From positions 1 to 34,859 of the forward strand of contig JAADFL010000077.1 of the NCBI GenBank assembly GCA_013152945.1: a stretch of DNA of 34,859 nt, read 5' to 3'. Numbering within the stretch: position 1 is the first letter of the stretch; the number at the start of each line of letters is the position of its first letter. The translations under genes were made by a program, and so were the position numbers. Shown one piece after another: positions 1 through 26,300 of the stretch. Below the pieces are notes generated by a model. The model did no database searches, was not told where the DNA came from, and saw only the letters and a list, made by a program, of their open reading frames with translations. Origin of the DNA: Deltaproteobacteria bacterium (GTDB taxonomy: Bacteria; Myxococcota_A; JAADFL01).

Positions 1-251
1 CCAAGTGGGGCCGGGCCGAGCTTCACTGATAGGTTTCCAGGATACAGAGCCGAAAGCTCCTCAACCGGATCCGAACATGTTTGCAAATAACGAGAAATTT
101 CGGGGAGAAATTTCGGGGACGGAGGTTTGGCCCGGCAAGCCGGCACTCGATAGATTCCAGCGCCATTTCAAGCAGTTGAGCCCGATCCCCATCGGAAACG
201 GGAGCAAGCTCCGTCCCCATGACCTCCCATGACCTAATCAGGCCCTGGGCC
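1..251. other. Left-edge noncoding stretch
   Basis: No convincing gene is seen here. Reading frames over this stretch are on both strands, lack ribosome binding sites and run through the repeat at 115-218. The only structure is that repeat and a tandem duplication of a 13-bp unit (92-104 and 105-117) on its left edge. Confidence 0.6.
115..218 (+). repeat. 104-bp dispersed repeat with 10-bp terminal inverted repeats, copy A
   Basis: The ends are GGGGACGGAG (115-124) and CTCCGTCCCC (209-218), a perfect 10-bp inverted repeat. Inside are two more short palindromes, CCGGCAAGCCGG and CCGATCCCCATCGG, so a transcript could fold into a closed stem carrying two hairpins. Copy B at 1665-1768 differs at about 7 positions. 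Together they bracket the ATPase gene in the same orientation. The architecture resembles REP- or MITE-like elements that are moved in trans; no transposase is present in the window. Confidence 0.85.
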
Positions 252-1550
252 CTATACTCCTTCCAGCAAAAACTTCCAAACAGGAACAACGTTCACCGGG
301 CCGGGCCCGGTCTCGATGCTCTCCTGCTCGCTTCTGGTGACCATGGTCCCATGTCGTAACCCGAGCTCCTCCATGGCCTCCACCAAGGCCAAGACTTCCC
401 TCTTGCGGGTCTGCTCCTGTGACAGTGTCTCCGAAACCTGCACGAGACGTTTCTCGCCTTCCATCACCACCAAGAAATCCACCTCCTTGCCAGTATGCGT
501 CTTGTAGTAGTGAACATCGGCACTGCTGCGTTTTAGATGCATGAGCACGATGTTCTCCAAGAGATGGCCGCTGTTCAGTAGCACTCCGGGCGACACCGAC
601 CGTACGAACGCATGGTCTATGCAGTAAATCTTCTTCGGGTTCACCTTGCTGCGCCGGATCGACGTTGAGTACAGCCTAACCGAGAACAGGAAGTACGCGT
701 CCTCGAACCATTCCACGATCTCCCCAACCTCGGCCTTGCTTATCTTGTGTCCCAGCGCTCTGAGGTACCCATGCAGGCGATTTACCGAGTACAGTGAGGC
801 CACGTTATCGAGCAGGAAGTGGGCAAGGTCCTTTACCGCCCGCGGATGCGATGTGTCGTAGCGCTCCACCACGTCCCGGAACAAAATAGCGTTGAAGTAC
901 TCCTGATGCACCTCGACCCTCAACCGTGCGTCCAGGCCCTGGACCTCTGGGAAACCGCCATTACGCCAGTAATCTTCAAACGCCTTCTGCACCATCAGCC
1001 TGCGCTTCGTGGACAGCGGCAAGCCGGCGTCGACGCCCTTGTAGTCGAGGAGCTCCAGGAACGAGAAAGGAAATATCTCCCACGACAGGGCCCGCCCCCG
1101 CATCTGGGTGGCGATCTCCCGTGACAGCAGGTGCGCGGACGAGCCGGTAAGATACACCTCGCACTTCTCGGTACGCATCACACGATCAACGAACGCCTCC
1201 CACCCAGGCGCCGCCTGTATCTCGTCGAAGAAGCAGTACACCGTCTCTGTGCCCTTCTTCTCTGGGTAAATGGAGTAATACGCCTCGGTTACGAGCCCCA
1301 GGTTCCCCGCCTCTAGCCGGTGGAGCCGGTCGTCGAAGAAGTTGACGTACAGGATGCTCTTGCGATCTATGCCCTGCTCTTGGAGCCGCTTCATGAGCTG
1401 GAACATGAAGGTGGACTTCCCCGCCCTTCTCACGCCGATGCACACCGTTGCCTTGCCCGGCACGGTGGAGACCTCGAGCCTTCGCGGCACTCCAGTGAAC
1501 GGCTGCGATTCCTGGAAGTCGAGAATCATCGTTCTGAGCGTGTCGAGCAT
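252..1550 (-). CDS. AAA-family ATPase with DUF4143-type C-terminal region
   Basis: This is a 432-residue stand-alone P-loop ATPase of the AAA_14/DUF4143 kind, a family common in mobile and accessory DNA whose cellular role is mostly unknown. Visible motifs, numbered from the chosen start, are Walker A GVRRAGKST (about 39-47), Walker B with a DE pair (about 109-110), a TGSSAHLLSRE sensor-like segment (about 135-145) and an NGGFPEV segment. Near the C-terminus, GKEVDFLV matches the degenerate nuclease-like fold usual in this family. A GTG start at 1607 would add 19 residues. I prefer the ATG at 1550 because the protein then starts just before the conserved region, but its GGAG is very close to the ATG, so the start is uncertain. 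The gene stands alone between two direct repeats, which suggests it may have moved as a unit. Function is not inferred beyond ATP binding. Confidence 0.85.
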   Translation of the reverse strand: MLDTLRTMILDFQESQPFTGVPRRLEVSTVPGKATVCIGVRRAGKSTFMFQLMKRLQEQGIDRKSILYVNFFDDRLHRLEAGNLGLVTEAYYSIYPEKKGTETVYCFFDEIQAAPGWEAFVDRVMRTEKCEVYLTGSSAHLLSREIATQMRGRALSWEIFPFSFLELLDYKGVDAGLPLSTKRRLMVQKAFEDYWRNGGFPEVQGLDARLRVEVHQEYFNAILFRDVVERYDTSHPRAVKDLAHFLLDNVASLYSVNRLHGYLRALGHKISKAEVGEIVEWFEDAYFLFSVRLYSTSIRRSKVNPKKIYCIDHAFVRSVSPGVLLNSGHLLENIVLMHLKRSSADVHYYKTHTGKEVDFLVVMEGEKRLVQVSETLSQEQTRKREVLALVEAMEELGLRHGTMVTRSEQESIETGPGPVNVVPVWKFLLEGV

Positions 1551-1664
1551 CTCCAAGCCTTTTTTTCGTGGCCGACATCGGCCCAACTTGGTCAGAATTC
1601 TAACCACTTAACCCCGTACTTGTCAAGAAATCAGACCGATTTGGGAAAATCTCGGGAAAATCTC

Positions 1665-1768
1665 GGGGACGGAGGTTGGGCCCGGCAAGCCGGCACCCGC
1701 TAGATTCCATCGCCATTTCAAGCAGTTGAGCCCGATCCCCATCGGAAACGGGAGCAACTTCCGTCCCT
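1665..1768 (+). repeat. 104-bp dispersed repeat, copy B
   Basis: It aligns without gaps to copy A (115-218), with about 7 differences in 104 positions. The left end GGGGACGGAG is intact, while the right end reads CTTCCGTCCCT, so the terminal inverted repeat has decayed slightly. The two internal palindromes are preserved. Confidence 0.85.
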
Positions 1769-1826
1769 AGGGTCCTCCGCCGCCAGGCATGATTTCTGTA
1801 TGACAATCGTTCCACTTATGGATAAT

Positions 1827-1898
1827 AGGGTACAGGCTGTCATCCAGGGTACAGTAGACGCCGGCAGCTTGACAGGTGAATGGAAACGAGGCTACTCG
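1827..1898 (+). promoter_or_regulatory. Putative promoter/operator region of the glycosidase gene
   Basis: AGGGTACAG occurs twice in direct orientation, beginning at 1827 and 1846, a 19-bp spacing that puts both copies on nearly the same face of the helix. A TTGACA -35-like box lies at 1869-1874, but the -10 match 17-18 bp downstream (TACTCG at 1893) is poor. The start codon at 1916 is preceded by AGGAGA at a normal distance. The repeats could be activator sites; this is inference only. Confidence 0.3.
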
Positions 1899-1915
1899 AT
1901 TGTAGGAGATAGGCC

Positions 1916-3799
1916 ATGAAAAACCAGACTTTGCTCTTTGCTTTGTTCTTTCTGACAATGATATCGCTATCCAGTTTCGCTTGTGGCTCCAGCACGTCTT
2001 CAGGAGACAGCGACATAGATACAGACACAGATACAGACGTAGATACGGACACGGATACGGACACAGACACGGACGTAGATACGGACACGGATACGGACAC
2101 AGACACGGACGCTGATACGGACGTAGATACGGATGCAGACACGGACGTAGATACGGACGCAGATACGGACGCTGACACGGATGTAGATACCGACTCTGAT
2201 GTGGATACAGATGCCGACACGGACTCCGATACAGACACCGACGCCGACTCGGATACGGATGCTGATACAGACTCGGACAGCGACGTAGACACAGACACGG
2301 ATACGGATACAGGCGTTGGCCTGCCCTACCCTGCCCGGGGAGACTTCCAGATAAAAGGCCTGCAACCCGACTTCTGGCCGGACAAGAATCAACTAGTAAA
2401 TGCCGGCATGGCAGACGTGTCCATGAACCTGATCTGGGCGTCTTGGGAGGCGACGCCGAAGAGCCCTCCTTGCAACCCTTCCTCGGAACAGGAGTACGAA
2501 GGCCACTGCTTCAAGATCGACAAGGCCGTGGATGAGGCGATCAAAGACTGGACCGACAAGGGTGTCATCGTGGCCGCAATTATTTACGGTGTCCCCGCAT
2601 GGGCCAGGAAGGGTAATACGGGTTGTTCGCCCGTCACAGACGGGTTCGATATATTCTGCACGCCGGACGATCCCGACGACTATGCAAGGTTTGCAGGAAT
2701 GCTGGCCGAGAGGTATAACGGCCGAAACGGCCACGGCAGGATAGCGGACTTCGTGATACACAACGAGGTCAACTCCAATACCTGGTTCGACATAGGATGC
2801 GGCCAGGGTGTGCCGTGCGCCAAGGACAAGTGGATAAAGACGTACGCCGACAACTATGCGGCTGCGTACGACCAGATAAAAAAACACCAGTCGGCTGCAA
2901 AGGTCCTATTCTCGTTCGAGCATCATTTCGACACGGTATTCGACAAGCCCAATGACAAGGATGCAACGCTGTCGGTCAAGACATTCGTTCGAGGGCTGGC
3001 AAAGCTGCTCGGAGACAGGCAATGGATGCTCGCTTACCACCCGTACGCACCGGACTTGTTGTCCCCCGACTTCTCCGTAAACGATCTTCCAAAGGTCACC
3101 TACGGTAACATTGGTGTCTTGTTGGGCTGGCTTCGCCAGGAGTTTCCGGACAAGCCCCACGCATGGGAAGTAGAACTGACAGAGAGCGGCGTGAACTCCG
3201 CTCCTCCCAAGTCTGACGAGACACGCCAGGCAAAGGCCATCTGTGATGGGTTCAGGAACATACTGGGCACACCTGGAATCATCAACTACATCTACCACAG
3301 GCTGCGGGACAACCCTGCCGAGGGTGGCTTGCAACTGGGCCTTATACGAAGCGACGACTCTTTCAAACCCTCTTGGGACGTATGGTCCAAGTGCAGCCAG
3401 CAAGGAAGCCTTGATTGCGGTTTCGAGAACCTGCCCTACACCAAGCTCACGAGGTACCACAAGACGTTTGCCGGGCACTGGACAAGCACTAGGCTGCCGC
3501 CTGACGGGTTCGATGCAGAGCAATCCTGGTTCCTGTTCAGGCACGAGCAACCCGGAACCAAGCTATTGTTCGAGTGCAAGGTATACACCAACAACCTACT
3601 GACCGACGATCCTAACTGCGAGGGTCAGCAGAACATGGGACCAGTGGGTTACATCTGGACAAAGGAGCACGATAACACCGTGCCCTTGTACAGGTGCAAG
3701 GTAGGCCAGTCAGGGCTGGATCACTTTGTCTCCACTGATCCGAACTGCGAGGGGCAGATACAGGAATCGCTGTTGGGCTATGCCATACCTACGAATTAG
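1916..3799 (+). CDS. Secreted lipoprotein: Asp-Thr linker, clan A-like glycoside hydrolase domain, DUF5648-like C-terminus
   Basis: This 627-residue exported protein is probably a carbohydrate-active enzyme. Residues 1-22 form a signal peptide, with Cys23 in SSFACG as a likely lipid-anchored cysteine, although the lipobox is not ideal. Residues 31-132 are an almost pure Asp-Thr/Asp-Val/Asp-Ala/Asp-Ser linker, extremely acidic and probably extended or calcium-binding. A TIM-barrel-like region of about 140-500 follows. HNEVN places a candidate acid/base at Glu284, and ELTESG a candidate nucleophile at Glu423, the pattern of clan A hydrolases such as families 5 and 39. Residues from about 515 carry repeated VPLYRC and STDPNCEG motifs resembling DUF5648 modules. 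Substrate cannot be read from sequence. The gene is monocistronic, with an AGGAGA ribosome binding site 8 nt before ATG. A fragment of an unrelated methyltransferase gene lies just after its stop. Confidence 0.8.
   Translation: MKNQTLLFALFFLTMISLSSFACGSSTSSGDSDIDTDTDTDVDTDTDTDTDTDVDTDTDTDTDTDADTDVDTDADTDVDTDADTDADTDVDTDSDVDTDADTDSDTDTDADSDTDADTDSDSDVDTDTDTDTGVGLPYPARGDFQIKGLQPDFWPDKNQLVNAGMADVSMNLIWASWEATPKSPPCNPSSEQEYEGHCFKIDKAVDEAIKDWTDKGVIVAAIIYGVPAWARKGNTGCSPVTDGFDIFCTPDDPDDYARFAGMLAERYNGRNGHGRIADFVIHNEVNSNTWFDIGCGQGVPCAKDKWIKTYADNYAAAYDQIKKHQSAAKVLFSFEHHFDTVFDKPNDKDATLSVKTFVRGLAKLLGDRQWMLAYHPYAPDLLSPDFSVNDLPKVTYGNIGVLLGWLRQEFPDKPHAWEVELTESGVNSAPPKSDETRQAKAICDGFRNILGTPGIINYIYHRLRDNPAEGGLQLGLIRSDDSFKPSWDVWSKCSQQGSLDCGFENLPYTKLTRYHKTFAGHWTSTRLPPDGFDAEQSWFLFRHEQPGTKLLFECKVYTNNLLTDDPNCEGQQNMGPVGYIWTKEHDNTVPLYRCKVGQSGLDHFVSTDPNCEGQIQESLLGYAIPTN
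2012..2311 (+). repeat. In-frame tandem repeat encoding the Asp-X linker
   Basis: About 300 bp of imperfect GAY-ACN hexamer repeats (Asp-Thr) with occasional Val, Ala and Ser codons at the second position. Higher-order duplication is visible: a block containing GACGTAGATACGGACACGG recurs at about 2036 and 2072. Such tracts expand and contract by slippage and keep the frame because the unit is six bases. Confidence 0.9.
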
Positions 3800-3811
3800 A
3801 GCCTGGTAAAA

Positions 3812-3857
3812 TCACCTCGAAAGTGCCTTGCCGTACATGAGATGCAGGCCCGGCCCG
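3812..3857 (-). pseudogene. Fragment of the RNA methyltransferase 3' end
   Basis: These 46 bp match 8907-8952 at 44 of 46 positions, in the same orientation. At 8907-8952 the sequence is the last 14 codons and the stop of the methyltransferase gene. Read on the minus strand, this copy would encode PGLHLMYGKALSR and a stop, against LGLHLMYGKVLSR in the intact gene. Nothing of the rest of the gene is present. It is immediately followed by the truncated repeat at 3861, while the intact gene end is itself next to a repeat remnant. Confidence 0.85.
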
Positions 3858-3860
3858 GCA

Positions 3861-3898
3861 AGCGAAAATCCGGGGACGAGCGAAAACCCGGGGACGGA
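3861..3898 (+). repeat. Truncated left end of the dispersed repeat with 18-bp tandem duplication
   Basis: Two 18-bp units, AGCGAAAATCCGGGGACG (3861-3878) and AGCGAAAACCCGGGGACG (3879-3896), are followed by GA. They resemble the left flank and left end (GAAAtttCGGGGACGGA) of copies A and B, but the body of the element is missing. Confidence 0.6.
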
Positions 3899-4099
3899 CT
3901 TCCCATCTGTACTTATTTATAATTCTATTGTTTTTTTACAACCCTGCTCTCTCTCGAATATCCCATATTCTTATCCTTTCCACATTTCAAACTGGTACAG
4001 GAGGTTGGACCCGACCAACTGGCGATCATTCAATTTTACCATTATTTCTATGAGTCGAGTTCACTTCGCGTCGAAAACAAGAGCAACCTCAAGCTCTAT

Positions 4100-4140
4100 C
4101 TAGCCCGAGTTTACCGCCTTCGGCGGCAAACTCGGGCTAG
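4100..4140. other. Long near-perfect palindrome (19-bp arms)
   Basis: Arms 4100-4118 and 4122-4140 pair at 18 of 19 positions around a TTC loop; the single mismatch is at 4113/4127. The outer part is CTAGCCCGAGTTT and the inner stem CCGCC/GGCGG. No T-run follows on either strand and the nearest genes end hundreds of bases away, so it is not a convincing terminator. It could be a solitary palindromic element or a cruciform-forming site. Confidence 0.75.
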
Positions 4141-4445
4141 GGCTTGTCAAACTGAAACCCGAAAGGCATCACCCCAGGTGGCCGGGCCGAACGATCAAGC
4201 AGCTAAGCCAATCCCGGGTTGACGATTAGCATTACCGTGCATCAGCTCGGTTCACCCCTCCCATAACAGGTCAAGTGACCTTCCGAATAAAAAGCGACGA
4301 ATCCGTCCCCGAGGAAGGACCCGGCCTTGAGTATCGGTGAGAGTCCACCCGCATGGCACCAGTAACCACCATTTTCGTGTACCCGCCTTCACTCTTCCCC
4401 AGTGTAAGTTGCCTTGTTGCAACGAGGGTGAACAAAACCAGGAAC

Positions 4446-4546
4446 GGACGGAGGTTGATCCCGGCAAGCTGGTGCTCGCTAAAATTTGGTGCCCTTTCAA
4501 GTAGTTGGGTCCGCTACCAGTCAAAAATGGGGGCAATCTCCGTCCC
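4446..4546 (+). repeat. Diverged copy C of the dispersed repeat
   Basis: The ends are GGACGGAG (4446-4453) and CTCCGTCC (4538-4545). The body shares CCCGGCAAGC, the GCTCGCTA segment, TTTCAAG.AGTTG and GGGGCAA with copies A and B but is clearly older. The first internal hairpin survives as CCGGC/GCTGG through a possible G-U pair. It lies about 50 bp beyond the end of the protease gene. Confidence 0.7.
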
Positions 4547-4597
4547 TATGGTTTGCTGGTTCGGTGGTGGTGCTGCGTGGTTCTCTGCGATACGGGA

Positions 4598-7141
4598 CTA
4601 GCCCACAAAAGTCTCCACTGGTAGGCCTACCTGGACAGCAATCGGTGTATAGATATCCGTCTCAATGTCTTCAGTCTCGATTGAAACGATCAACGCATAG
4701 CGGGTTCCGTATTCACTGCGGTCCTGTTTTTTCTGCTCCTTCCACCACCCGGTTACCGGATAAACAGCCACTACGCCACGTTCCGCTATGTCTGCGGCAA
4801 GGCCTTCAAGAATGTCAGAGTGAAGAGAGCCGTGATTGCGAGCCTGTTCGCCAAGATACCAGTCCTTTGAATCGCCGCTTGTGGACGGTTTCTCTTCTTC
4901 CTCGTCGAGGGCTTTTTTATTTAGCCGTTTGCGGAATTCATCTAGGGACTCCGTGGGCCCCTTAACGTCAAACCGCAGGCCATGAGACTGATAGCGATGT
5001 CGCTTTTTCCAACCGCGTCGTCCTGGATTGGGCTCGATGAAATATGAAAGGGTGACGCGAACCCGAACATTGGCATCTCCCAGTGATGCGAGAACTTCTC
5101 GTGGCCAGGGAAGCTCGTAGAAATGCATTTCACGCAGCTTCCCGTCTTCAAACGGCCGGATACTCCCTTGAACTAACAGTGTTGCCGAGTTGTCCGCGCT
5201 CCGCAGAGCCCTGTCGAGACTGGGCACGCCGAAACCGTAACGCCGAACGAGCCGTGCACGGGCTCGCTTCCTGTCATTGGTTGCGTCCAGATTTTTCTTC
5301 ATCACTGGAGTCCATTCTGCAGAGTGTACAACCAGTCCGCGTATCATCTCTGGCCATAGGTCGGGATAAGCGGCTGCTATGGAAGCGGCTATCCTAGCGG
5401 CCTGTGCTGTCGCCGGGCTCGTGGCCCAGGAAAGAACAAACGGTTTTTCTGTAGGCTTGAAGTACGTGGTAAGCAGACTCAAATCTTCACACGGAAAATC
5501 CACCGTTCCTTTGTCATCACGAACGATGTTTCCTCCTTCCATGACAATGTCGGGTTTGAACGGCCACTGCTTCTCGAAGGTAACCGAAGTCGTACTCCAG
5601 GGAGAAAGGTCTCCGCGTTGCGCGACCGGCTCCCAATCATTCCATGCCAGATCCTGAATGATGACCTTATCGGTATATGCTCCAACCGTAAGAGCGTTCC
5701 ATGCCTGGGCAGGATCATGAATGGGCTCGGTATCGCTCCTAGCCAAGTGATCTGGCTCCATTTCGTCGACATTCCCTGCACAGACAATGAAAAGACGGCG
5801 ATGAGGTTCATCGTCATCCAGGTAGACAAGACCTTTGGTAGATGGATCGAAAGAACGCCCGGCTGCCAGCGCATCAATGGCAGAGGACCAGGAGGTTGGC
5901 TTACCGCGGTCTCTTGTGTCCCTCGATGTAATTGCCATTGAGAACACCCGCCGTCGTGTCGGAGACTGAACCTCTACCCGGCCCGCTGCTTCTGCAGTGA
6001 CGGCACCATAAAGCTCCGGATCGTTCTGGCCGGTAGGCGGGAGTATCTTGACCGACTCCAGACCATGCCCGAGCCGGACTGGTTCCTTGCCCGCGAGCAG
6101 GGGAACAAGGTCGCCATAGAGGGCGAGCCCCGCCATTTCAGTGCCATGCCCGTCGTGGTCATTGCTCCCCCAATTGGGATCGACGGTGTGGCAGTCCTGC
6201 GGGGCAAGGGCGTGCTCTAGCAGTGGATGCCCTCGATTTACACCAGTGTCCAATATGCAGACTGAAGGAGATTCACCCGACGGCGGTGTCATGCGTTCCA
6301 ACAGGTCCTTCACCCAGTCGGCTTGCTCTTTGGGACTCTGCTCGACAAAGAAACTGGCAGTCTCCTTTGCCCGCTGAAGCTCCGCGAGATCGTTAATTAC
6401 ATCCAGCGACGCCGCAAGCTGCCGTGCCGTTCCATGGACAAGGGTAACGATCCGCTCATCGAACTGGATACGTCGGGGGCTGACCTTCAGCCTTGTTTGA
6501 GATGCAAATTCCAAAAATCTCTGTAGCTCTTCTCCGTCTGTTCTCCGAAGCCAGACTTCCCACCAAATTGACTCGTCTTCTGAAGATGGATAGACATCCC
6601 TTGCGTCTGTCCACAGAGATCGAAGTGCTGCTAATCTAACCTTCGAAACGCGGTCGTACACGCTTTCATGGCGCCGCTCACGGGGTTTCTTTGGTGTCGT
6701 TCGTGCATATCGCTCGAGCTGCGAGAGAAAATGCCCAACTTGCCCATCCGGAACAATAACAGCAGCGTATTGGATTTCTTCAGCGTCTGCGCCTTGGCCA
6801 ACGACTTCCGTCGACACAGCAACAACCTCAATATGCTTGCGTGGATCCTTGGCACGCCGATTCTCGAAGCTACCGATGGCGAGCTCCCATCCCTGGAATG
6901 ATTCAAATTCCAGGTAGACTCCTGGTTTTGCGCCGATTACCTCGATGGATGTAAGCCCCCTTCGTGCTCTTGCCTCATCTACCGCTCTATTGATCGATGC
7001 CTGTAGATAGACTCCGTGTGAATGCCTCCCTACAGAGGGCGGTTCAGTCTTCGTCTTTCTACCGCTGGAGTACGACTGGTAGCTCTCGGTCTTTGCTTGC
7101 CAAGGAACGATGATGTGGGGATGTTTGCGCGTCGTATCCAT
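4598..7141 (-). CDS. ietS: Subtilisin-like serine protease, probable IetS component of an anti-phage pair
   Basis: This 847-residue cytosolic S8-family protease has no signal peptide or membrane segment. The triad is visible as Asp298 (ILDTGVN), His332 (DGHGTEMAG) and Ser575 (ATSPATAQ, where most subtilases have GTSMA); the oxyanion asparagine is probably N457 in CAGN. About 290 residues precede the protease domain and about 250 follow it, as expected for the large subtilases paired with AAA ATPases. The start ATG has GGAG 8 nt upstream and lies 27 bp after the stop of the ATPase gene on the same strand, so the two are co-transcribed. An AAA+ ATPase followed by a subtilase is the composition of the IetAS defence system. 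Which protein it cleaves and what triggers it cannot be told from sequence. Catalytic calls are certain; the defence role rests on gene pairing. Confidence 0.85.
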   Translation of the reverse strand: MDTTRKHPHIIVPWQAKTESYQSYSSGRKTKTEPPSVGRHSHGVYLQASINRAVDEARARRGLTSIEVIGAKPGVYLEFESFQGWELAIGSFENRRAKDPRKHIEVVAVSTEVVGQGADAEEIQYAAVIVPDGQVGHFLSQLERYARTTPKKPRERRHESVYDRVSKVRLAALRSLWTDARDVYPSSEDESIWWEVWLRRTDGEELQRFLEFASQTRLKVSPRRIQFDERIVTLVHGTARQLAASLDVINDLAELQRAKETASFFVEQSPKEQADWVKDLLERMTPPSGESPSVCILDTGVNRGHPLLEHALAPQDCHTVDPNWGSNDHDGHGTEMAGLALYGDLVPLLAGKEPVRLGHGLESVKILPPTGQNDPELYGAVTAEAAGRVEVQSPTRRRVFSMAITSRDTRDRGKPTSWSSAIDALAAGRSFDPSTKGLVYLDDDEPHRRLFIVCAGNVDEMEPDHLARSDTEPIHDPAQAWNALTVGAYTDKVIIQDLAWNDWEPVAQRGDLSPWSTTSVTFEKQWPFKPDIVMEGGNIVRDDKGTVDFPCEDLSLLTTYFKPTEKPFVLSWATSPATAQAARIAASIAAAYPDLWPEMIRGLVVHSAEWTPVMKKNLDATNDRKRARARLVRRYGFGVPSLDRALRSADNSATLLVQGSIRPFEDGKLREMHFYELPWPREVLASLGDANVRVRVTLSYFIEPNPGRRGWKKRHRYQSHGLRFDVKGPTESLDEFRKRLNKKALDEEEEKPSTSGDSKDWYLGEQARNHGSLHSDILEGLAADIAERGVVAVYPVTGWWKEQKKQDRSEYGTRYALIVSIETEDIETDIYTPIAVQVGLPVETFVG

Positions 7142-7168
7142 GACGCCACTCCAAACTTCGAGGCGAGG

Positions 7169-8155
7169 CTACGGACGCATTATACGACGTTCATCCAGGG
7201 CAGCGACCAAATCCTCGGTCTTTATAGTCGCCATTTCCTTGAGCAGGACAGATTTGGCAGCCTGCTCGCAGGCCCTTGTCAGCTCGCCGTGGCTAAGCCC
7301 CTTGGCAGCGTCAGCAGCCTTCGACCAGTCGATCTTGCTTGTGTCGAGCAAGGCAAGACGCCCCTCCATTACACGAACGGCAATGTCTGCCGAGGGGATC
7401 TCGTACTCGAACACAGCATCGAAGCGTCTGAAAAGAGCCCGGTCTAGTAACCCGACATGGTTCGTTGCACCGATAATCAAGCTGTCGGACTCATCCTGAT
7501 CGAGAAGCTGGAGGAAAGAATTAAGGACCCGACGAATCTCACCGACGTCATTGGCCGTTCCCCGTTCACCGCCGAGAGCGTCAAACTCGTCGAAAAGGTA
7601 GACACCACGCCTGTTTCCAATGGACTCGAAAACAAGCCTTAGCTTTGCCGCCGTCTCTCCCATGAACTTTGTTATCAAACCATCGAGCTGGATCATGAAC
7701 AGGGGCAGGCCAAGTTCTCCTGAGATCGCGGCAGCCGTCATGGTCTTCCCAGTGCCTGGTGGGCCAATGAGAAGAAGCTTTCGCAGCGGAGTAAAACCGT
7801 GTGAACGCAAGGTCTCGCGTTTGCGCTGTTCGAGAATTACACTTTGCAACCGCTCGTGGAGTTTCTCTCCGAGAGCCATTTCGGCTAGGCGCGTCTTGGG
7901 GTAGGTGAAAGTTAGAATACCAGCAAGCTCACCCCGGGGCTGAGCCAACGGAACAGGACGACTGTCACGCACAGATTTCCCAGAGCCGGCCTTCTCCCTG
8001 GCCCTGTCGACCAGGTCCCGCAGCTCCTGGGCGAAGTTCCCGTGGCCACTGCGCGCAGCCTGTGCGGCAACCTGCATTGCGACAGCGTAAAAACGCGTAT
8101 CGTCACCTTCTGCATGACTGCGAATCAGCGCCTTTATTTGATCTGCCTTGGCCAT
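7169..8155 (-). CDS. ietA: AAA+ ATPase, probable IetA component
   Basis: This 328-residue classical AAA+ protein has Walker A GPPGTGKT (131-138), Walker B YLFDEFDAL (185-193), sensor-1 GATN (228-231), an FRRFD arginine-finger segment (241-245) and a helical lid with the sensor-2-like SHGEL. An N-terminal region of about 110 residues contains a short helical repeat (QALxRxH-like) and may bind a partner or trigger. It belongs with FtsH/spastin-like unfoldases but lacks a membrane anchor and its own protease domain, so the neighbouring subtilase may be the proteolytic partner it feeds or controls. The start ATG has AAGGA upstream at normal spacing. A 45-codon frame on the same strand lies 221 bp upstream. 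Assignment to IetA rests on the pair; a general protein-quality role cannot be excluded. Confidence 0.85.
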   Translation of the reverse strand: MAKADQIKALIRSHAEGDDTRFYAVAMQVAAQAARSGHGNFAQELRDLVDRAREKAGSGKSVRDSRPVPLAQPRGELAGILTFTYPKTRLAEMALGEKLHERLQSVILEQRKRETLRSHGFTPLRKLLLIGPPGTGKTMTAAAISGELGLPLFMIQLDGLITKFMGETAAKLRLVFESIGNRRGVYLFDEFDALGGERGTANDVGEIRRVLNSFLQLLDQDESDSLIIGATNHVGLLDRALFRRFDAVFEYEIPSADIAVRVMEGRLALLDTSKIDWSKAADAAKGLSHGELTRACEQAAKSVLLKEMATIKTEDLVAALDERRIMRP

Positions 8156-8376
8156 GACGATCCTTCAGTCAACTTCTCCCCTGTCCTCGAGACCAGTCAA
8201 GTTGAACATCCTGCCCAAGCACATCTACACCATAATCGTGCCATAAGCGCGTTCGCCGGTCAATTTTGTATCGATTCGACTCGTTAGACGCGCCTCACGC
8301 TTGTTTATTATTAGATCACAACCGGTCTCCAAGGTCACGCATTTTTTATCGGTTGACTTTTATTATGGATAACAGC

Positions 8377-8514
8377 TTAGTTCATAGCCGATTGATTGAA
8401 CTTGTCATTCCACAGCTTCGCGGCTTCCTGTAACGTCATTTTGTGCAATCTGCAATATCGACAATGTAGCTGGTACTGCGTTAATTCGCTATCTTTCCTC
8501 TCACTTACCGGCAT
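8377..8514 (-). CDS. Small 45-residue protein with HC-x2-C-x2-H motif
   Basis: This short frame opens with ATG at 8514 and ends with TAA at 8377. GGAGG sits 4 nt before the ATG, stronger than the sites of the neighbouring protease and ATPase. The product has a charged N-terminus, a cluster His17, Cys18, Cys21, His24 that could bind one metal ion, and a predicted amphipathic helix (TLQEAAKLWNDKF). I do not recognise the family. It lies on the same strand 221 bp upstream of the AAA ATPase and could be an accessory or regulator of that pair, or an independent gene. It was found by direct reading; there is no homology support. Confidence 0.5.
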   Translation of the reverse strand: MPVSERKDSELTQYQLHCRYCRLHKMTLQEAAKLWNDKFNQSAMN

Positions 8515-8906
8515 TTTCCCTCCAACCGTGTTATGGTTTAGTACGAATCATTAATTGAAGCCTGGTTGCGCGAATGATGCCCCTCCTGCGCTCGTTCGGG
8601 GCCGTGCACCCGACAAGTGAAGCATACCCCTTCCCTATCTCCATAATCCCGGAACCGCTCACCCTCTTTTGTAACTTGTTCTACGAAACTGAATTTATTT
8701 GGCCGACCCAGGCTTGTCAAACGAAAACCAGGAGGCTGTCATACCGGACAGGAACGTAGCAGGTGCGCAGCAGGGTGATGGAGGTTACCTCTGTCGATTG
8801 GTCACTGTTAAAAAAAGGCTGTGATATCATGGCGATAATTTCGATGTGCCTGTGGCGGAGGGCCGGCCTCCGTCCCCACCGGTCACCCACCGGTCACCCC
8901 CACCGG
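8515..8906. other. Intergenic region between the small gene and the methyltransferase
   Basis: Holds a right-end remnant of the dispersed repeat (8856-8877) and a tandem repeat (8876-8910). A 60-codon frame on the minus strand (8538-8720, TTG start) has no ribosome binding site and no recognisable product. The promoter of the small gene should lie just above 8514, but no clear boxes were found. Confidence 0.5.
8856..8877 (+). repeat. Right-end remnant of the dispersed repeat
   Basis: CTCCGTCCCC at 8868-8877 is identical to the right end of copy A. It is preceded by CGGAGGGCCGG, so CGGAGG and CCTCCG form a 6-bp stem. The body of the element is missing. It touches the tandem repeat that runs into the stop codon of the methyltransferase gene. 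Confidence 0.5.
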
Positions 8907-8910
8907 TCAC
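8876..8910. repeat. Three copies of an 11-bp unit overlapping the methyltransferase stop codon
   Basis: CCACCGGTCAC occurs at 8876-8886, 8887-8897 and 8900-8910. The third copy includes the TGA stop codon of the methyltransferase gene (complement of TCA at 8907-8909). The unit contains the palindrome ACCGGT. Confidence 0.8.
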
Positions 8911-10127
8911 CTCGAAAGTACCTTGCCGTACATGAGATGCAGGCCCAGCCCGCCCTGTATTACAGGCAGATCCTTGATCAACTTTAATTCATAGTTACCC
9001 TTTGAATTCACTGCCTTGAAAACCTCGGGATTAGTAGTGACGATTCCGAACTTCCAACCCTTGTAATACTTTCCCAAGGCGCCAGTAATATCTTCTGCCA
9101 GGGCACTTGCAGCCGGCCTGCCGCCGATACGTTTTCCCAGGGGCGGATTCATGGCCAAAAGGCCGGCACCGGTGACACCAATGTCTTTTCGCAGCTTGTT
9201 TTTGAAAAAATCAGCCCTTGCAAAAATAATGTCTTCCAGGGTCCCTGCCCTTTTTGCATTGGCCTTTGCAACCTCGACCGAACCCGCCTTTATATCATTG
9301 GCCAAGATCAAGGCCGATATCTGCTTGGACTCACTTCGGGACATTGAGAATTTCAGGTTTTCAAACATCTTCTTCCTGTGAAAGGGAAGCTGCTCCACCG
9401 CAAAGTTCCTCTTTACCCCCGGGGCCTTGTTCCGTGCTATCATGGCAGCTTCTATCGCCACAGTACCCGAGCCGCACATCGGGTCGAACAGGGGTTTTTC
9501 TTTGTTGTACTCACAAAGTAATAACAATCCTGCTGCAATGGTCTCACGAAGAGGTGCAGGCCCTGTGGCCAAGCGATATCCCCGCTTGTGCATGGGATTG
9601 CCCGTAAGATCGAGAAATAACCTGGTCAAATCCTTGTCAAGCCGCAAAACCATGTCCTTGCCATGCTTGTTTTCATTGAATGCAGGGGGTTCGAGTTCGA
9701 GGTGCTCAAACCTGGAACAAACTATGCGTTGAATCGTGTCACCGGCTCTTGCGCCTGCTCCCTTACCCATCCCGGAGAATGTAATCAATGATACTCGTTG
9801 CCCCTGGTTCAAATAGACTTCCCATGGAACTCTTCGAGCAGCCCTCCGGAACCTTTCGAAGCCTGGTTTTACGGACAGGATTTCAAGTGAAACCCGTTCT
9901 GCTGTACGCAAGCCCAACAGGGCCTTGTACGCCCCATCCAATTTCGAGGCAAAGGATACGCCATATTCAAGGATAACAGCCGGACCCAGCCCCATGGAAT
10001 CGAGTTCCTTTGCACAAATCGATTCCAGGCCCGGTTCGGTCGAAGCGACAAGAGAAAGCTTTTTTGACCAGATATGTTTCTTTACCCTTCTTCGGATATT
10101 TACTACTGTTGTTGATGTATTTATCAC
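8907..10127 (-). CDS. rlmL: THUMP-domain class I SAM-dependent rRNA methyltransferase (RlmL-like)
   Basis: This 406-residue enzyme probably modifies guanine in 23S rRNA or tRNA. The N-terminal part (about 25-165) is a ferredoxin-like/THUMP RNA-binding region, followed by HKRGYR and APLRETIAAGL, diagnostic of the RlmL/Trm14 group, and the SAM-binding motif DPMCGSGT (215-222). The catalytic motif is NPPLGKR (327-333), whereas relatives have an aromatic residue after NPP, so Leu330 is unusual. The start is GTG at 10127 with GGGAG about 11 nt upstream. The RlmK half found in enterobacterial RlmKL is absent, as in most other bacteria. The gene stands alone. The last 46 bp are duplicated downstream of the glycosidase gene at 3812-3857. 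The symbol is by family and the exact target base is not certain. Confidence 0.85.
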   Translation of the reverse strand: MINTSTTVVNIRRRVKKHIWSKKLSLVASTEPGLESICAKELDSMGLGPAVILEYGVSFASKLDGAYKALLGLRTAERVSLEILSVKPGFERFRRAARRVPWEVYLNQGQRVSLITFSGMGKGAGARAGDTIQRIVCSRFEHLELEPPAFNENKHGKDMVLRLDKDLTRLFLDLTGNPMHKRGYRLATGPAPLRETIAAGLLLLCEYNKEKPLFDPMCGSGTVAIEAAMIARNKAPGVKRNFAVEQLPFHRKKMFENLKFSMSRSESKQISALILANDIKAGSVEVAKANAKRAGTLEDIIFARADFFKNKLRKDIGVTGAGLLAMNPPLGKRIGGRPAASALAEDITGALGKYYKGWKFGIVTTNPEVFKAVNSKGNYELKLIKDLPVIQGGLGLHLMYGKVLSR

Positions 10128-17366: not shown

Positions 17367-20300
17367 CTACCTGGTGATCTGCCAAAGTGAAAGGCCCTGC
17401 TCGAAACCGCTTATATAAAGATTCGATCCCATTTGGCTGATTCCCTGCACGAAATCTATCTGGTCATCCTGAATTATCTTTTGTGGATTAGCCGGATCCG
17501 AAACATCCCAGACACGCAGGGTATTTCCCGTAAAGAGATATTTTCCCGAGCCGTAACACCTGTACACGTTGACACCGGTCACGGACTTAACCAGGACCGG
17601 AGCGGTAATAACGGAAATGTCATAGACCTTGAAACCAGAGCTGCCAAGTGCCAGGTAGGCATAGTCACCGTTTACATAGACTGATGTAACAGTGCCGCCG
17701 GGACTCACCGTTGCAGCAATTGAAAGGCTTGTTGGATTAGTCAAATTTACGATTTGATAATAACCAGGCATCCCAACATGGGCATAGCCACCGGAAACGT
17801 AGATATCACGGGCATTACTGTTGTTGAGCTGGACATAATCCAAATATTGTCCCGATGCCTGGCTGGCCGTCCTGTCACGCACATCCCAAATCTCGAGCCA
17901 TGAACGAAACACCGAGTTGTTATTGCGCAAAATCAAAAGGTAGTTGCCCCAGGCTTCGACATCATAGATCGTTCCTCCAGTAGTTACTGTACCAGTGTGC
18001 ACTGGAGAAAAATTATTTCCAATATTCATTATCCAAACCTGGTTGCTCGGCTGATTGAAAAAGGCATATTCTCCCTGGTTGTCCAATGCCAGCACGTTCG
18101 TGGAGTTTGCCGTATCACTAAATGCCGCCTCTTGGCTGATATCGTCCGGGTTCATCACATTTATCACGCGCAGGCGCGTGTCCTGCGACGATCCTCCTCC
18201 TGTGACTATATAGTTGCCATAGGCGGTGTTGGACCTGGTATCCTCCATTATTCCACTCGAGTACTCAACCCGTTCAGCCGTGGCTACCCTGAAGACATAT
18301 ATCGAGCTGCCGGACAAAGCGTACACGTATCCGCCGGAAAGCGCCACCTGGCTGAATGCGACACCACGGTACTGACCGACAAGCTCTACATGGGTTGGAT
18401 CCCGTATATCTAGGATATTCAATCCCTGCTTGCCCGGATAGTTGGTAACACAATACACATAGTTGCCGCCAACTTCGAAATCGGTACACCCGTCAAAAGC
18501 ACCACCTTCCAGAGTACCATAATAATATTCGTACATCTTGGTGTCGTCGCCGATAAACATGTAACGCCGGTACCTCTTGACTCTCTGGCCGCCTTTCTCG
18601 GTGTACTGAGTTTTACCGGTCAAATCAACGCCGGAATAACGCCAAATATTGTAATTGGTAGCCACGAACACGTACCCGTCCGCAGCCCAAATATCATTTG
18701 GCACACCTTCGTCAAAGGCGACTTCCAATTCTGTTGTCAAATAAGGCCCAGTGGTACTGTTAAATGAGAATTTGCCAATTTTCCATCCAGGACTGGAGTT
18801 ATCCCAGTACACTCCATAGGCATAGTTACCCTGCGGATAGAAACCTTTAAACGCCTTATTCGGTTCGTCATTGTAATCCCATGAATACAAATTACGTGGC
18901 GTACTCCGTAAGGCCTGTATACCGGCGTCAGAATAATCAATGGCGTAAATGTAGCGCCCCCACGGAATCAGCCGTCCTCCCTTTCCATTTGTCGACCATG
19001 TATGTGAACTCAACTGTTTCAATGAAGTGGGATCGGAAGCATCTATGGCGACCGCCTCGGTTCCATTTGATACATACAGGTATTCACCCTGCACTGTGAT
19101 GGAACTTGCATTTGCAATCGTAGTGAAAACTGATTCCAGTTCCGGAGAAACCCGGTTGGGTCGCGCCTCGACCGATCCACCAAGGGCAGAGGCATTAGGC
19201 CCTGGATCGCTCGTGTCGTCATAGGCATCGATGGACACGTAGAATCCTATTCCATTGGACAACCCGGTAAGCGTAAAAGAAGTGAGGTTACCCACATCAA
19301 TCGGGCTCTGGCCTTCGTTTGCAAACGTCCCGGTGTACAATGATTTGTCGGTCCCATTGTATTCATAATCATAGTATATGCGATAACCTTGCACATCACT
19401 GGCGGATGATGAAGCCCATTTCAAGGTAACTGCGTGATCCCTGTTTATCACCTCGTTTATCACCATTGAAGGCGGCGCAGTAGAATCCTCCTTGATGGTC
19501 ACCCAACCTGGATCACTGGCGTTCAGGGCATTGTCGACCGCACGTATCTGCAAGACGTTGTCCATATCCTGCGTAAGGTTGAAACTGAAAATCGTGTTCG
19601 TCTCCAAAGTTGAACAAGACGTCCAACTTGGGTATGAGCTTCCTCCCTTGCATTCCCAACGAAGGAAGTGGGTGTCAACATCCGGAACATTGGTGCGGGT
19701 CACAGAAATGCTTGCGCGATTCACCTTTTGAGATGGAGTAATTACCTGCGGCGCATCAGGAGGTGTCATATCCAGTACCAGGCTTACCGAGTCGGTATTA
19801 CTCAAATTTCCCGCCTGATCTCTGCACACCGCACTGACCGTGTAACTATTGTCAACGGCCGGCAGCGAATATGACTTGTAGTAAGAGTAGGGTTCCCATG
19901 GTTCCGTATCACAATTTCCGTCATGGGTCAGACACACTTCATAGCAGCCAGTCGAATCTATTCTTAGGGACAGCAGGGATTCGGCGCAATATTCCGTGCC
20001 TGCATACAAATTGCATCCATCCAGGTAGAGTTGCGTAATGCTCGGAGCCTGGGTATCCAGAACAATAGTATCCGATACGATACCACTCTGGTTACCGGCC
20101 TGGTCCAGGAACATTACATAAACCGTCTTCTGCCCGTCGCCGAAAGTGAGTTGCCAGTTTGAATAGGATCCGAGGTTGGTGGTCTGGGTGTACGAGCTGA
20201 AATTCGGATAATTGGATATCCGTGCCACATACGCATCGCCCTGATAACCATACGTGAGATCGACGCGTCTTTGAGAATCGTTCGTGTAGCCCGCCCCACC

Positions 20301-23300
20301 GTCGATTGATACAAAGCTGGCTGACGGCGGCGTCTGATCCAGTGTAATCTCAGTGGTGTTCGTCCCCAGTGCCTCGTTTCCGGCCTCGTCTCTGCATTTG
20401 ATGTACACTCTCTTGTTGCCGTCGTTGGAACTCAATACCCAATCCTGATTGTTGACAGCAGGTTGCCAACTCGCGCCTCCGAAGTTGGGATCCTCGGATA
20501 ATATGATATCGGCAACCGCAGTCGTATCGTCTGCATAGGCTATGGCCAACGCCTTTACACGTTCGTTGGTAGGCGTTGTCAGGTCATTGAATTCAACGGA
20601 GCAGGTACTTGGCCCGAGCGTATCCAGAATGATATCGTCTGAAAAGCCCGGACTCACGTTTCCTGCACGGTCCCTGTAACGAACATAGGTCTTTACCTTT
20701 CCATCAGGCTGGCTCAACGAATACGTCAATGTGTCCACCGCATCTTGGAACACACCGTAACTGTTGAATGTTTCGCCCAATTTCATATCCAGTATTCCAC
20801 TGACATCATCACTATAGGACATGGACAGGCTTACAATGTTGTTATTTGTAAATTCATCATTCTGGTTGATTGTTATACCACCTGCAGGCGCTTCGACGTC
20901 CAAAACAATACTTGAAGAAGCTGTGCTCACATTTCCTGCATAGTCACGAACAGTCACGTACACAGGCCTGCTTCCCTGTATATCCGTGCAATCAACTCCG
21001 GGTACAAGCCCACAAGCATCAATGTTGACACTACCGAGTGTAGACACCTGATTACACCAATCGGAAGAAAGGTCCCGGTCAAAACCATTGCTGTTCCTGC
21101 CACAGGTCGTGGCATCACATAGGAGTTGCTTGTCCGCGGTCCATCCAGTACCCACGGGAGGAGCAGGCGGCGAAGTTCCAAAGGCGATATAATCCACTAC
21201 TTCGCCTTCACCATTCCTTAATACGCCGTATCCATTTCCGGTCTGCCACAAACAGTTGGCGCCGAAATACAGGTGATCTTGCGTGTTGACACCAGTCCCT
21301 TCATCCAGGATGACATACTGTTGCGGTTGCAAAGTAAAATCGGGCAGAGACCATACAACCGAATTGGTGGTAATAGCGCATTCAAACGTCCAACCTGTAA
21401 GATCGACCGGGTATCCCGTTTCATTTAACAATTCAGCCTGGTCGGGGTTATCAGTGAAAATCTCGTTTATTATCACACCGCTTGTCCTGCAAGTAGGTGT
21501 AACAGGGTCCACCAAGTCAAAGGCGGGAACTGTTCCTGCAAACGGGGCCCAAGTCCCGGAGAAACTCCCGGTCCGGCTCAGCTCCATTTTTTCGGCTCCG
21601 CTACCTCCAAGATCGTTTACATTTATTGCCAGATCCACGATCCGTTCCTTCGTATAATTCGAATCGGCGCCGTCAGGCCCTGTGCCGGTAATAGTCATGT
21701 CCACTATTGGAGGCAGCGTGTCCAGGGTTATCTGGCCTGAAGGATTGGGCGCTGCGTTCACATTGCCGGACCTGTCCCTCACCTTTACATACAAGCTCTT
21801 GACTCCATCGCCGCCGCTCAAGGTCCACGAAAACATGTCCTGGTAGTCCTGCCAGGAAGCACCTGCAAACACGGGCGACTCGGACACCATCATCTGTTTC
21901 AACTGGTCGTCGTCGCTGAAACCGGAAAGACTCACCGTCACACCCCGGTCCCGCGTATAGCTCGTGCTCGGACCCCCTGCGCCAAGACCATTCAAGGTAA
22001 CCGTCCCGGCAACAGGAACCTGCGTATCCACGTGCACTGTCGCCACTTCCGGCGCGGAAAGATTCTGCGCAGCATCAGCAACCGTAACCCTTACATTGTG
22101 AGGACCGTCCCCGCTCGAAAGCTTCAACAATCCACTATGATTCGTCCCATAATCAGACCATACGCCCACGGGCAGGTATCCTGCTCCCCCGTCTATCACA
22201 TCCCCGTCTATCAATATCTTGTCGCAATACGTATCCTGGCAATCAACGTCTATGTTCAAATCATGGCTGTTCGTGTAATAAACTTCACCATCCTTGTTCA
22301 ACCCCGGCAGGCTCAAAGTAACCTTCGGCACCTGCGTGTCCTGGTAAACATCCACGGAACCACACGCATTCTCCTGGCGGTTCCCTGCCTGGTCTTTCAA
22401 CCTCACATATACTGTGTGAACCCCATCCCCGGACGTCAGGTTCACCCGCCCTATCTCGGTAAAGCTCACCCACGAAGCACCCGTAAACCCGGAATTCTCC
22501 GATGCCTCGTAATATTGAACCCCGGATACATTGTCATTCACTCCCATCTGGAAATCCACGAACCCGCTGTTCACATACATCGTCCCATCTACAAGATTGC
22601 CGTTCACTACCGTCAGCGTGCACGGACTGTCAGGGGCCGTCGTATCAAGGTATATGTCGGACGATGTATACAAAAGCGGTGACTGGTTCCCTGCATTGTC
22701 TCGAAGGGCCATAAACACCATCTTTTGGCCGTCCGTGGAATTGTCCAGGAATATCTGCGCTGTCTGTGAATACGGCTGCCAGGACAAGTTGGCCGGGAGT
22801 AATGTTGCATCCTCTGTAAACGCCATGTCGGCGATTCCACTCAGCTCGTCGAACCCGTTTATCGACAGGTCCACCATGGCATCGGACGTGTACATGCTCC
22901 CATCATTTATCGTAAAGTTGCCGGACGATGGCGTCATGTCGATCAGGATGTCGTCCATCCCCGTTTCCTTGTTACCTGCACTGTCCATCACCTGAACGAA
23001 CAATGACTTGTAACCGTTCGGATCAACACAATCGGATTGCAAAAGTCCACAATCACCGACATTGGATGAAGCTATGCTCTCTGCCTGCTGGCACCAGTCA
23101 TCACTACGGTTACGGTCGAATGCAAAACTCGTCCTGCCGCAATCATCGGAACAACTCAAAACTGCGCTCTCGCTCCACCCGCTCGAATCATTGCTAGTTA
23201 CCTGGCTGCCGTTCCAGCGCACGAAATCAACCTCCTGGCCCGCTGCATTCTTGACAACCAGCGCACCGGCATCCGAAGTCGTGCTACCCCAACCACAAGC

Positions 23301-26300
23301 GGAATCCATGTACAGGTAATTATCCGTGCTGCTGCCGCTACCCTCGTCTATCACCATGTACGACCATGCCGGTATCACTGCTGAAGGCAATGTCCAAACC
23401 ACATCGGGAGCTGACGGATTCTGTCCCACCCAGCACTCCAGCTTCCAGCCTTTCAACTGGACATCCATTGACGTCGCATTGTAAAGCTCAACACGATCAG
23501 GCTCCCCAAGATCCACCTCGTTCGCAACCACAAGGGTCCTGCACGTTGATACCGAAGGATCCATTATGTCATAGCCCGGAACTATATCGGCGTAATCCTG
23601 CCACGCTCCACTAAACTCGCTCGTCCTGGACAGCCGCATCTTGTACGGCGCCGACGTCTCGTCCACGGCACCTATATCCAATGTCACTTTCCTGCTCCTG
23701 CTCACGTCGGGATCCTGACCATCGAGCCCTCTCCCATAGATCGTCAACGGTATCTGAGGCCCGCCGGTGTCAAGAACTATCCCGGCCATGGATGCCGCAC
23801 TCTCGTTGCCTGCATTGTCCCTCACAACTCCGCATACAACCTTGTCACCATCTCCACTCGTCAATGAAAAAGACGAACTCGCCTTATACTCCTCCCATGT
23901 CCCGGATGGAACCGGATCACACGTGCCAAAGGCGTCTTCCCAAATAAGCATCTGGCCAAGACCGCTCGGTCCGCTGTCCGACGTACTCTTGAAATTCACC
24001 GTAATGTTGCGGTCACGCGTATACTGCGAAGCAAGACTTGCATCCGCAGCCAATCCCATAAGCTCTATTGAACCTATGCTCGGTGAAGTATCGTCCCTTA
24101 CAACGCTGTCAGACTCGGGCCCGGCCACATTCCCGGCTGAATCCCGGAAATATGCAATAACCGTCTTGCTCCCTTCTCCGTCGCTCAATGTAACAGGCTT
24201 TGAAGAACTCTTGACCTGCCAGCCGGGGCTCGATGCACTCGTGCAGTCAGGACTCGGAGGACTCGCTATATCTCCCGTTATACATACAAACTTGACACCA
24301 ACCGCAGACAGGTGGGCCGTCACACTCGCCCCACTTACGTAATCGCCAGGCTCCAGCGTTATCGATGCATTCTCCGGAGATGTGGTATCCAACACTATGT
24401 CATCCCGACGTATGGTCTCGTTGCCCGCAGCATCCACGAACTTGATGAACACGTCCTTGGTCCCGTCGCCACTCCCTATGTCCCAACTATTGTAGACGTT
24501 CGGATTGGTCCCGGAATCAAAGGCAAGCTCGGTCGGACTCGAAAATGTCCCCTCGTTCGACGCATACACCTTGTCCACACCGTTTTCGTCTGTGCCGAAA
24601 TACCTCAAGGTAACACTGCTGCTCGTGGTAAAAACAGCATCACTATTTATGTTGAACATCGTTACCTGGGGCGCCGTCGTGTCAAGAATTATACTGTCCG
24701 TCACCTTCTCGCTGTTCCCGGCGGAATCCCGCAAACACGCATACACCGTCTTCATTCCGTCCCCGGAGGACAACGTCCATGCCATTCCATCGCTGTACGC
24801 ACCATACAGAGCAGTCGCACAGTTCACGTCCGTGTTCGATACTGACACCTCGCTCACGTCAGCCGCAGCACTGAACGTCAACTGCACGGACGTATCATTC
24901 GTATACGTCGCCCCGGAATCTATGCTCAACGCACCTCCGGTAGGTGACACGTTGTCCAATATTATCGAGTCATTCGCAGAACTCGAATAATTCCCTGCCT
25001 TGTCCTTGTAACGAACATACACCGTCCGGCTCTCGCCATCCACGTTCGTAGGCGAATTCAGCGCCCAGCCGGAAAGCACGGCCGTATAATCGTAAGAAAC
25101 CTCCTCGCCCGAGAATGCTCCCGTGTTGCTCACCTCCACCGTGTCCAGGCCGCTCATGGTGTCGCTCGCACCAAGGTACAAGTCCACCTCCCCATTCGCA
25201 TCATTCGTATACTCGACATCATTGTCGATCATGACATACGGCCCATTGGGTGACGTAACATCGTATATTATGCTGTCGTTCACCACAGAACTCTCGTTCC
25301 CGGCCGCATCCTTGAACTTCACATATATGGTCTTCTCGCCGTCATCCTTGTCCGCAAGGGCATACGTATAACTCGTTACATAGGCTATCCAACCCGTGCC
25401 CGTGGCGAACGTCGGCTCCTCGGAGATACTCATATCAGTCGCATTCAACACGGATAACGTCAGATCAAGCTCTCCCAGCGCATCATTGTTGTACAACGAA
25501 CCTCCTTCTACCACCACGCTCGGAAGCTGAGGCGCTACCGTGTCCACGTGGATGGAGTCGTTTTCGCATGGCGAGGAGATGTTGCCGGCATCGTCCTTGA
25601 ACACCACCGATACGGACTTCGTTACCCAATCACCGCCGTCGTCCAGTACCCAGTCGACATCGCCTGCATAAGCCTGCCAGCTCCCGCCGCTGCAGGCGGC
25701 GCCCTGACTTATCTTCATATAAGTAGCCCCGACAGAGCTTACGGTCAGATGCACCGATGTATCCGCGGTATAGGCATCTCCGTCGTTTATCACCACGCTG
25801 CCGCTGCTTGGCGCAACATTGTCCAAGGTTATCGTGTCACTGTAAATCGCGCTCTCGTTTCCAGCGGCGTCCACGAACTTCACGCTAACGGTCCGCGTAT
25901 CTCCGTCCACATTCGCGGGACTCGAAAGCACCCAATCCACTATCAGGGTCCTGTAGCTCATCTCGCTCCAAGTGCTCCCGTCATTGCTGACCAGAACCTT
26001 GGCAAGTCCGCTTGTGGTATCACTCGCACCAAGCGTAAGGTCCACCTTGCCGTCCGCAGCAGTGCAATAAGTGGCGCCCGAGTCTATGCTGACTATCCCG
26101 TCCGAAGGCGCTGTAACGTCGTGAACAATGGAGTCGCTGACCACCTCGCTCTCGTTCCCAGCAGCGTCCTTGTACCTTACGAAAATCGTCTTGTCTCCTT
26201 CACCCGTATCGACCAACGAGTATGTATACGTAGTGGAGTAGGAGATCCATCCCGTGCCCACGGAAAAATCCTGCTTCTCCGCAATATTCATCTCGCTCGC

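Follow-up and report, generated by a model that had tools for sequence, protein, structure and literature searches.

An IetAS-type ATPase-protease pair between two copies of a gene-end repeat in a deltaproteobacterial genome

Results

The window, meaning the whole stretch of 34,859 nucleotides that was analysed, carries on its reverse strand a gene for an AAA+ ATPase of the classic AAA clade (ietA, 7169–8155, 328 aa), followed after 27 bp by a gene for a subtilase (ietS, 4598–7141, 847 aa). The ATPase matches the PADLOC profile IetA (PDLC02196) with an E-value of 7.9e-71 over residues 2–320 of 328 and the protease matches IetS (PDLC02198) with an E-value of 3.6e-38, which is how the profile search suggested in the original prediction turned out. 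The best NCBIfam matches of the two proteins are likewise IteA and IteS, despite scores far under the equivalog cut-offs, neither of which is reached (192.4 of 510 bits for the ATPase and 55.7 of 900 bits for the protease). What these cut-offs delimit is the close orthologues of the pair that was assayed, and the IetAS family is wider than that; because the scores fall so far beneath them, we regard the pair as a distant member of that family, and anti-phage activity may therefore not carry over from the assayed systems. The anti-phage role of IetAS itself is taken from the defence-screen literature and the PADLOC listing, and reportedly has its basis in the screen of Gao et al. in 2020.

IetA (Pfam AAA, PF00004, E 8.6e-30) has the Walker A motif GPPGTGKT at residues 131–138, a Walker B motif at 187–190 within LFDEFD (187–192), a sensor residue N232 and the arginines R243 and R244, so that both Walker motifs of the predicted ATPase are in place. 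Its relatives are 43–75% identical to it, with the Walker A and B and arginine residues invariant. The AlphaFold model (pLDDT 84) consists of an N-terminal three-helix bundle (4–56) and a classic AAA module, and in structure comparisons lies closest to PAN, FtsH and Vps4 (Z 22–25). IetS belongs to Peptidase_S8 (PF00082, E 1.2e-60), and its Asp298/His332/Ser575 triad, described as complete in the earlier reading of this DNA, is indeed present and is invariant in all 93 aligned IetS proteins. Its model (also pLDDT 84) shows a subtilisin fold and, C-terminally, a beta-rich domain like that of KP-43. The best structural matches, KP-43 and SubHal (Z 25), span mainly residues 264–656, with the N-terminal region 1–260 mostly outside them, and inspection of the N terminus revealed no apparent signal peptide.

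A search with an IetA alignment yielded 80 loci in genomes and another 54 in viral contigs. At most of these loci IetA is directly followed by a relative of IetS, and the same pair recurs in about 100 related loci; the order is as here, and the gap, measured in 92 relatives, is mostly 0–30 bp. Profile matches for both proteins, gene order, spacing, the conserved triad and these related loci together bear out the proposed IetAS-type pairing: judged by sequence, the pair at 4598–8155 is a further example of the known two-gene IetAS anti-phage and toxin-antitoxin system.

Among the IetS loci in viral contigs, IetA is missing in six of 56, and in each of these six the piece of IetS lies at the contig edge or within about 310 bp of it; away from contig edges IetA is present in 50 of 50. 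IetA stands without IetS, on the other hand, at about nine independent loci, at each of which the sequence continues for roughly 2 kb or more downstream. The presence of IetA without IetS, but of no interior IetS without IetA, agrees with the pattern expected of a toxin and its antitoxin. IetA homologues that lack a downstream IetS, and look like orphan antitoxins, are those of loci L057, L058, L064, L075, L134, L137, L138, L149 and L179. The idea that another effector has been swapped in behind IetA was dropped: the genes downstream of IetA-only loci are unrelated, and no common replacement was seen.

The pair is enclosed by a 46-bp direct repeat. The left, att-like copy (3812–3857) begins 12 bp past the stop codon of a DUF5722 gene, and the right copy (8907–8952) comprises the last codons and the stop codon of an RlmL-like THUMP/class I rRNA methyltransferase gene on the reverse strand (8907–10127; PF01170, E 5.8e-36; PF22020, E 2.2e-12). 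The copies are identical at 44 of 46 positions and are exactly two in the 4.84-Mb draft assembly, both edging the pair. The 5.1-kb stretch between them holds only ietA, ietS and short frames. There is no integrase within it, IetAS providing its only long ORFs, and the three genome-wide matches to the integrase family PF00589 all lie on other contigs. Methyltransferases of the same phylum are mostly about 26–42% identical to the RlmL-like one (about 33%), too distant for an empty-site comparison, and a search of the viral contigs with a 24-bp stretch of the repeat found no match. The RlmL-like gene is the likely insertion target, and the arrangement looks as if the pair had come in as a compact mobile island that integrated at a gene's 3' end. 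The DUF5722 protein on the other side (1916–3799) has a lipoprotein-like signal with a long Asp-Thr/Asp-Ala repeat linker behind it; elsewhere in the window a single ORF of 4700 aa occupies 17367–31469 on the reverse strand.

That the flanks are rich in repeats, as originally remarked, was an understatement: besides the 46-bp repeat at both island edges a 110-bp repeat is present three times in the vicinity. Two of its copies, at 108–217 and 1658–1767, bracket an AAA_14/DUF4143 gene (252–1607), and the third, a diverged copy at 4437–4546, sits inside the island just downstream of ietS (identities 94% and, for the diverged copy, 69%). The repeat is absent from the rest of the genome. Its ends carry inverted GGGGACGGAG. 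An integron attC site was considered for this repeat and abandoned, since the GTT-type core stands on its left and AAC on its right, an order opposite to that of an attC. Motifs of the form GGGGACGGA number seven in the window (0.4 expected), six of them clustered in 115–8877, and two of these six, oppositely oriented, lie close to the island edges on the inner side. A 15-mer containing GGGGACGGA has 19 exact or near matches in the genome, some in close pairs. We asked whether the repeats are REP elements that belong to a Y1 transposase; no match to that family (PF01797) was found in the genome. Also inside the island, downstream of ietS, is a hairpin with a near-perfect 19-bp stem (4100–4140; z -7.7), of whose region a 37-bp identical piece recurs near the start of another contig, C88. 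Rfam returned nothing beyond a sub-threshold match that is probably due to chance.

Upstream of ietA, on the same strand, lies a 45-aa ORF (8377–8514), for which a regulatory or sensor role had been proposed. The ORF exists, and GGAGG stands 4 nt ahead of its ATG; its status as a gene is another matter. Its codon score lies under that of 92% of real 45-codon pieces and over that of 64% of spurious ORFs, an ambiguous position, its G+C content is 43% compared with 55–56% for the pair, and it ends 221 bp before ietA. ORFs of 43–81 aa abound in the intergenic stretch around it. Its ribosome site had been called stronger than that of either partner, which holds in so far as IetA is preceded by AAGGA and IetS by GGAG; the match is just slightly longer than theirs, so the distinction is weak. 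The description as zinc-finger-like goes back to the residues H17-C18-x2-C21-x2-H24; the ORF has no PADLOC or NCBIfam match and only a sub-threshold match in Pfam. Relatives were found neither in 188 genomes of the phylum (best non-self match E 0.06) nor in plasmids, and phages gave matches at E 5–6 only. In the 147 homologous loci where the sequence upstream of IetA extends for at least 400 bp, a scan out to 800 bp found no relative (best phmmer E 0.76); co-occurrence with IetA/IetS pairs, suggested as a check, was seen at none of them. Such a lack of conservation beside homologous pairs is the outcome that the original prediction had itself named as refuting it, and it tells against a regulator or sensor in front of the pair. 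Nor does any other small upstream gene recur there, as ORF clustering yielded no family in more than five of the 147 loci. The ORF is probably neither a gene nor a conserved IetAS component, and we discarded it in that role on the strength of its lack of relatives in these loci, in plasmids, in phages and in the 188 genomes.

Flanking repeats of at least 60 bits also occur at other IetAS loci. They are direct in seven of 85 pairs, inverted in one of 85 and absent from all 200 mismatched flanks, the contrast of seven to one being suggestive only. At L174 a direct repeat of 171 bp (98%) lies at a gene 3' end, at L072, which also has an HNH gene, one of 196 bp (86%) does so, and at L119 one of 52 bp (96%) covers the 3' half of a tRNA-Pro. 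Such duplications beside several IetAS loci fit the picture of compact islands that have integrated at the 3' ends of genes. Four of the seven repeats (L087, L116, L054 and L142) may be fragments of genes or belong to dispersed repeats, so that a general claim of this kind is only a lead.

Discussion

What is known of homologous pairs gives the locus its most plausible reading. S026-S025 of the island SGI1 is a toxin-antitoxin pair, with the subtilase as toxin and the AAA ATPase as antitoxin, and its proteins are 50% and 36% identical to IetA and IetS of pTiC58 (PMC5006074). The Mycoplasma mycoides pair TA132/3, an AAA ATPase with a subtilisin-like protease, works as a toxin-antitoxin system as well, and is flanked by direct repeats according to its authors (PMC8562856). 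With the IetAS systems of PADLOC and the IteA/IteS families of NCBIfam the pair has in common both genes, the order of ATPase and protease, the domains and the catalytic residues, and it differs from them as a distant member, far under the equivalog cut-offs. Like pTiC58 ietA/ietS and S026-S025 (PMC5006074), it would be a mobile-element module of an AAA ATPase antitoxin and a subtilase toxin, and SGI1 is itself an island like the carrier proposed here, whereas this carrier is a 5.1-kb stretch without recombinase or transfer genes. TA132/3 is of the same pair type, proven as a toxin-antitoxin system, and has flanking direct repeats, which we take from the report without implying a likeness of kind; it comes from another phylum (PMC8562856).

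By analogy, IetS would be a cytoplasmic subtilisin-like protease able to harm the cell, and IetA, as its ATPase partner, would keep it inactive or direct it. This control might be upset when a phage infects the cell or when the element is lost; the released IetS would then cleave proteins, its substrates being conjectural, and the infected cell would stop growing. We infer that a 5.1-kb unit carrying the pair became part of the chromosome by site-specific integration at the 3' end of the RlmL-like gene, leaving the 46-bp direct repeat behind; the recombinase would have acted in trans or have been lost since. The explanation as a whole, namely an IetAS system with an ATPase-restrained protease, carried on a compact island, in which the 45-aa ORF plays no part, seems to us quite probable.

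Other readings concern different parts of this picture. The pair could serve general protein quality control, and neither defence nor a toxin-antitoxin function; the ATPase does belong to the PAN/FtsH clade, which serves proteolysis, and this member is assigned to IetAS from its sequence rather than from a defence assay. The IetA and IetS profiles are nevertheless the best system-level matches, the distribution is patchy (21 of the 188 genomes from the phylum have IetA matches at E-values of at most 1e-30), and homologues of the pair are found on plasmids and in virus-classed contigs, all of which makes a housekeeping role very improbable. Harder to dismiss is the possibility that the 46-bp repeat is no attachment site and merely records a segmental duplication or recombination event with no role in mobility. 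The island's lack of an integrase speaks for such a scar, as do the other direct repeats of unknown origin at the locus, namely the three 110-bp copies; against it, the genome has just these two copies and the pair lies between them, with one copy starting exactly at the stop codon of a gene, and the same geometry, tRNA 3' end included, is seen around other IetAS pairs. We consider a scar possible, if on balance doubtful.

The 45-aa ORF, finally, could be a real, lineage-specific regulator or trigger sensor that homology searches cannot see. It does lie upstream on the same strand with its GGAGG site, and one promoter-like match at 8720–8692 would precede it, although matches of that kind are at chance level (mean 0.9 in shuffled sequences). 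Such a role is the most improbable of the readings weighed here, given the intermediate coding score, the deviating G+C content, the 221-bp gap and the failure to find relatives near homologous pairs or anywhere else searched.

With the IetAS reading, a defence family gains a distant member and loses the third component that had been proposed for it; according to a 2023 survey, the mechanism of this family had yet to be described (PMC9958689). The unit is bounded exactly by repeats that derive from the end of a neighbouring gene, which hints at how IetAS pairs may move. A bolder conjecture, which we think unlikely as it stands, is that minimal islands are a recurrent vehicle of IetAS pairs: lacking a recombinase of their own, they would be moved in trans and insert at the 3' ends of protein-coding or tRNA genes. 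If that were true, the two-gene defence module would itself be the mobile unit, marked by a duplicated gene end.
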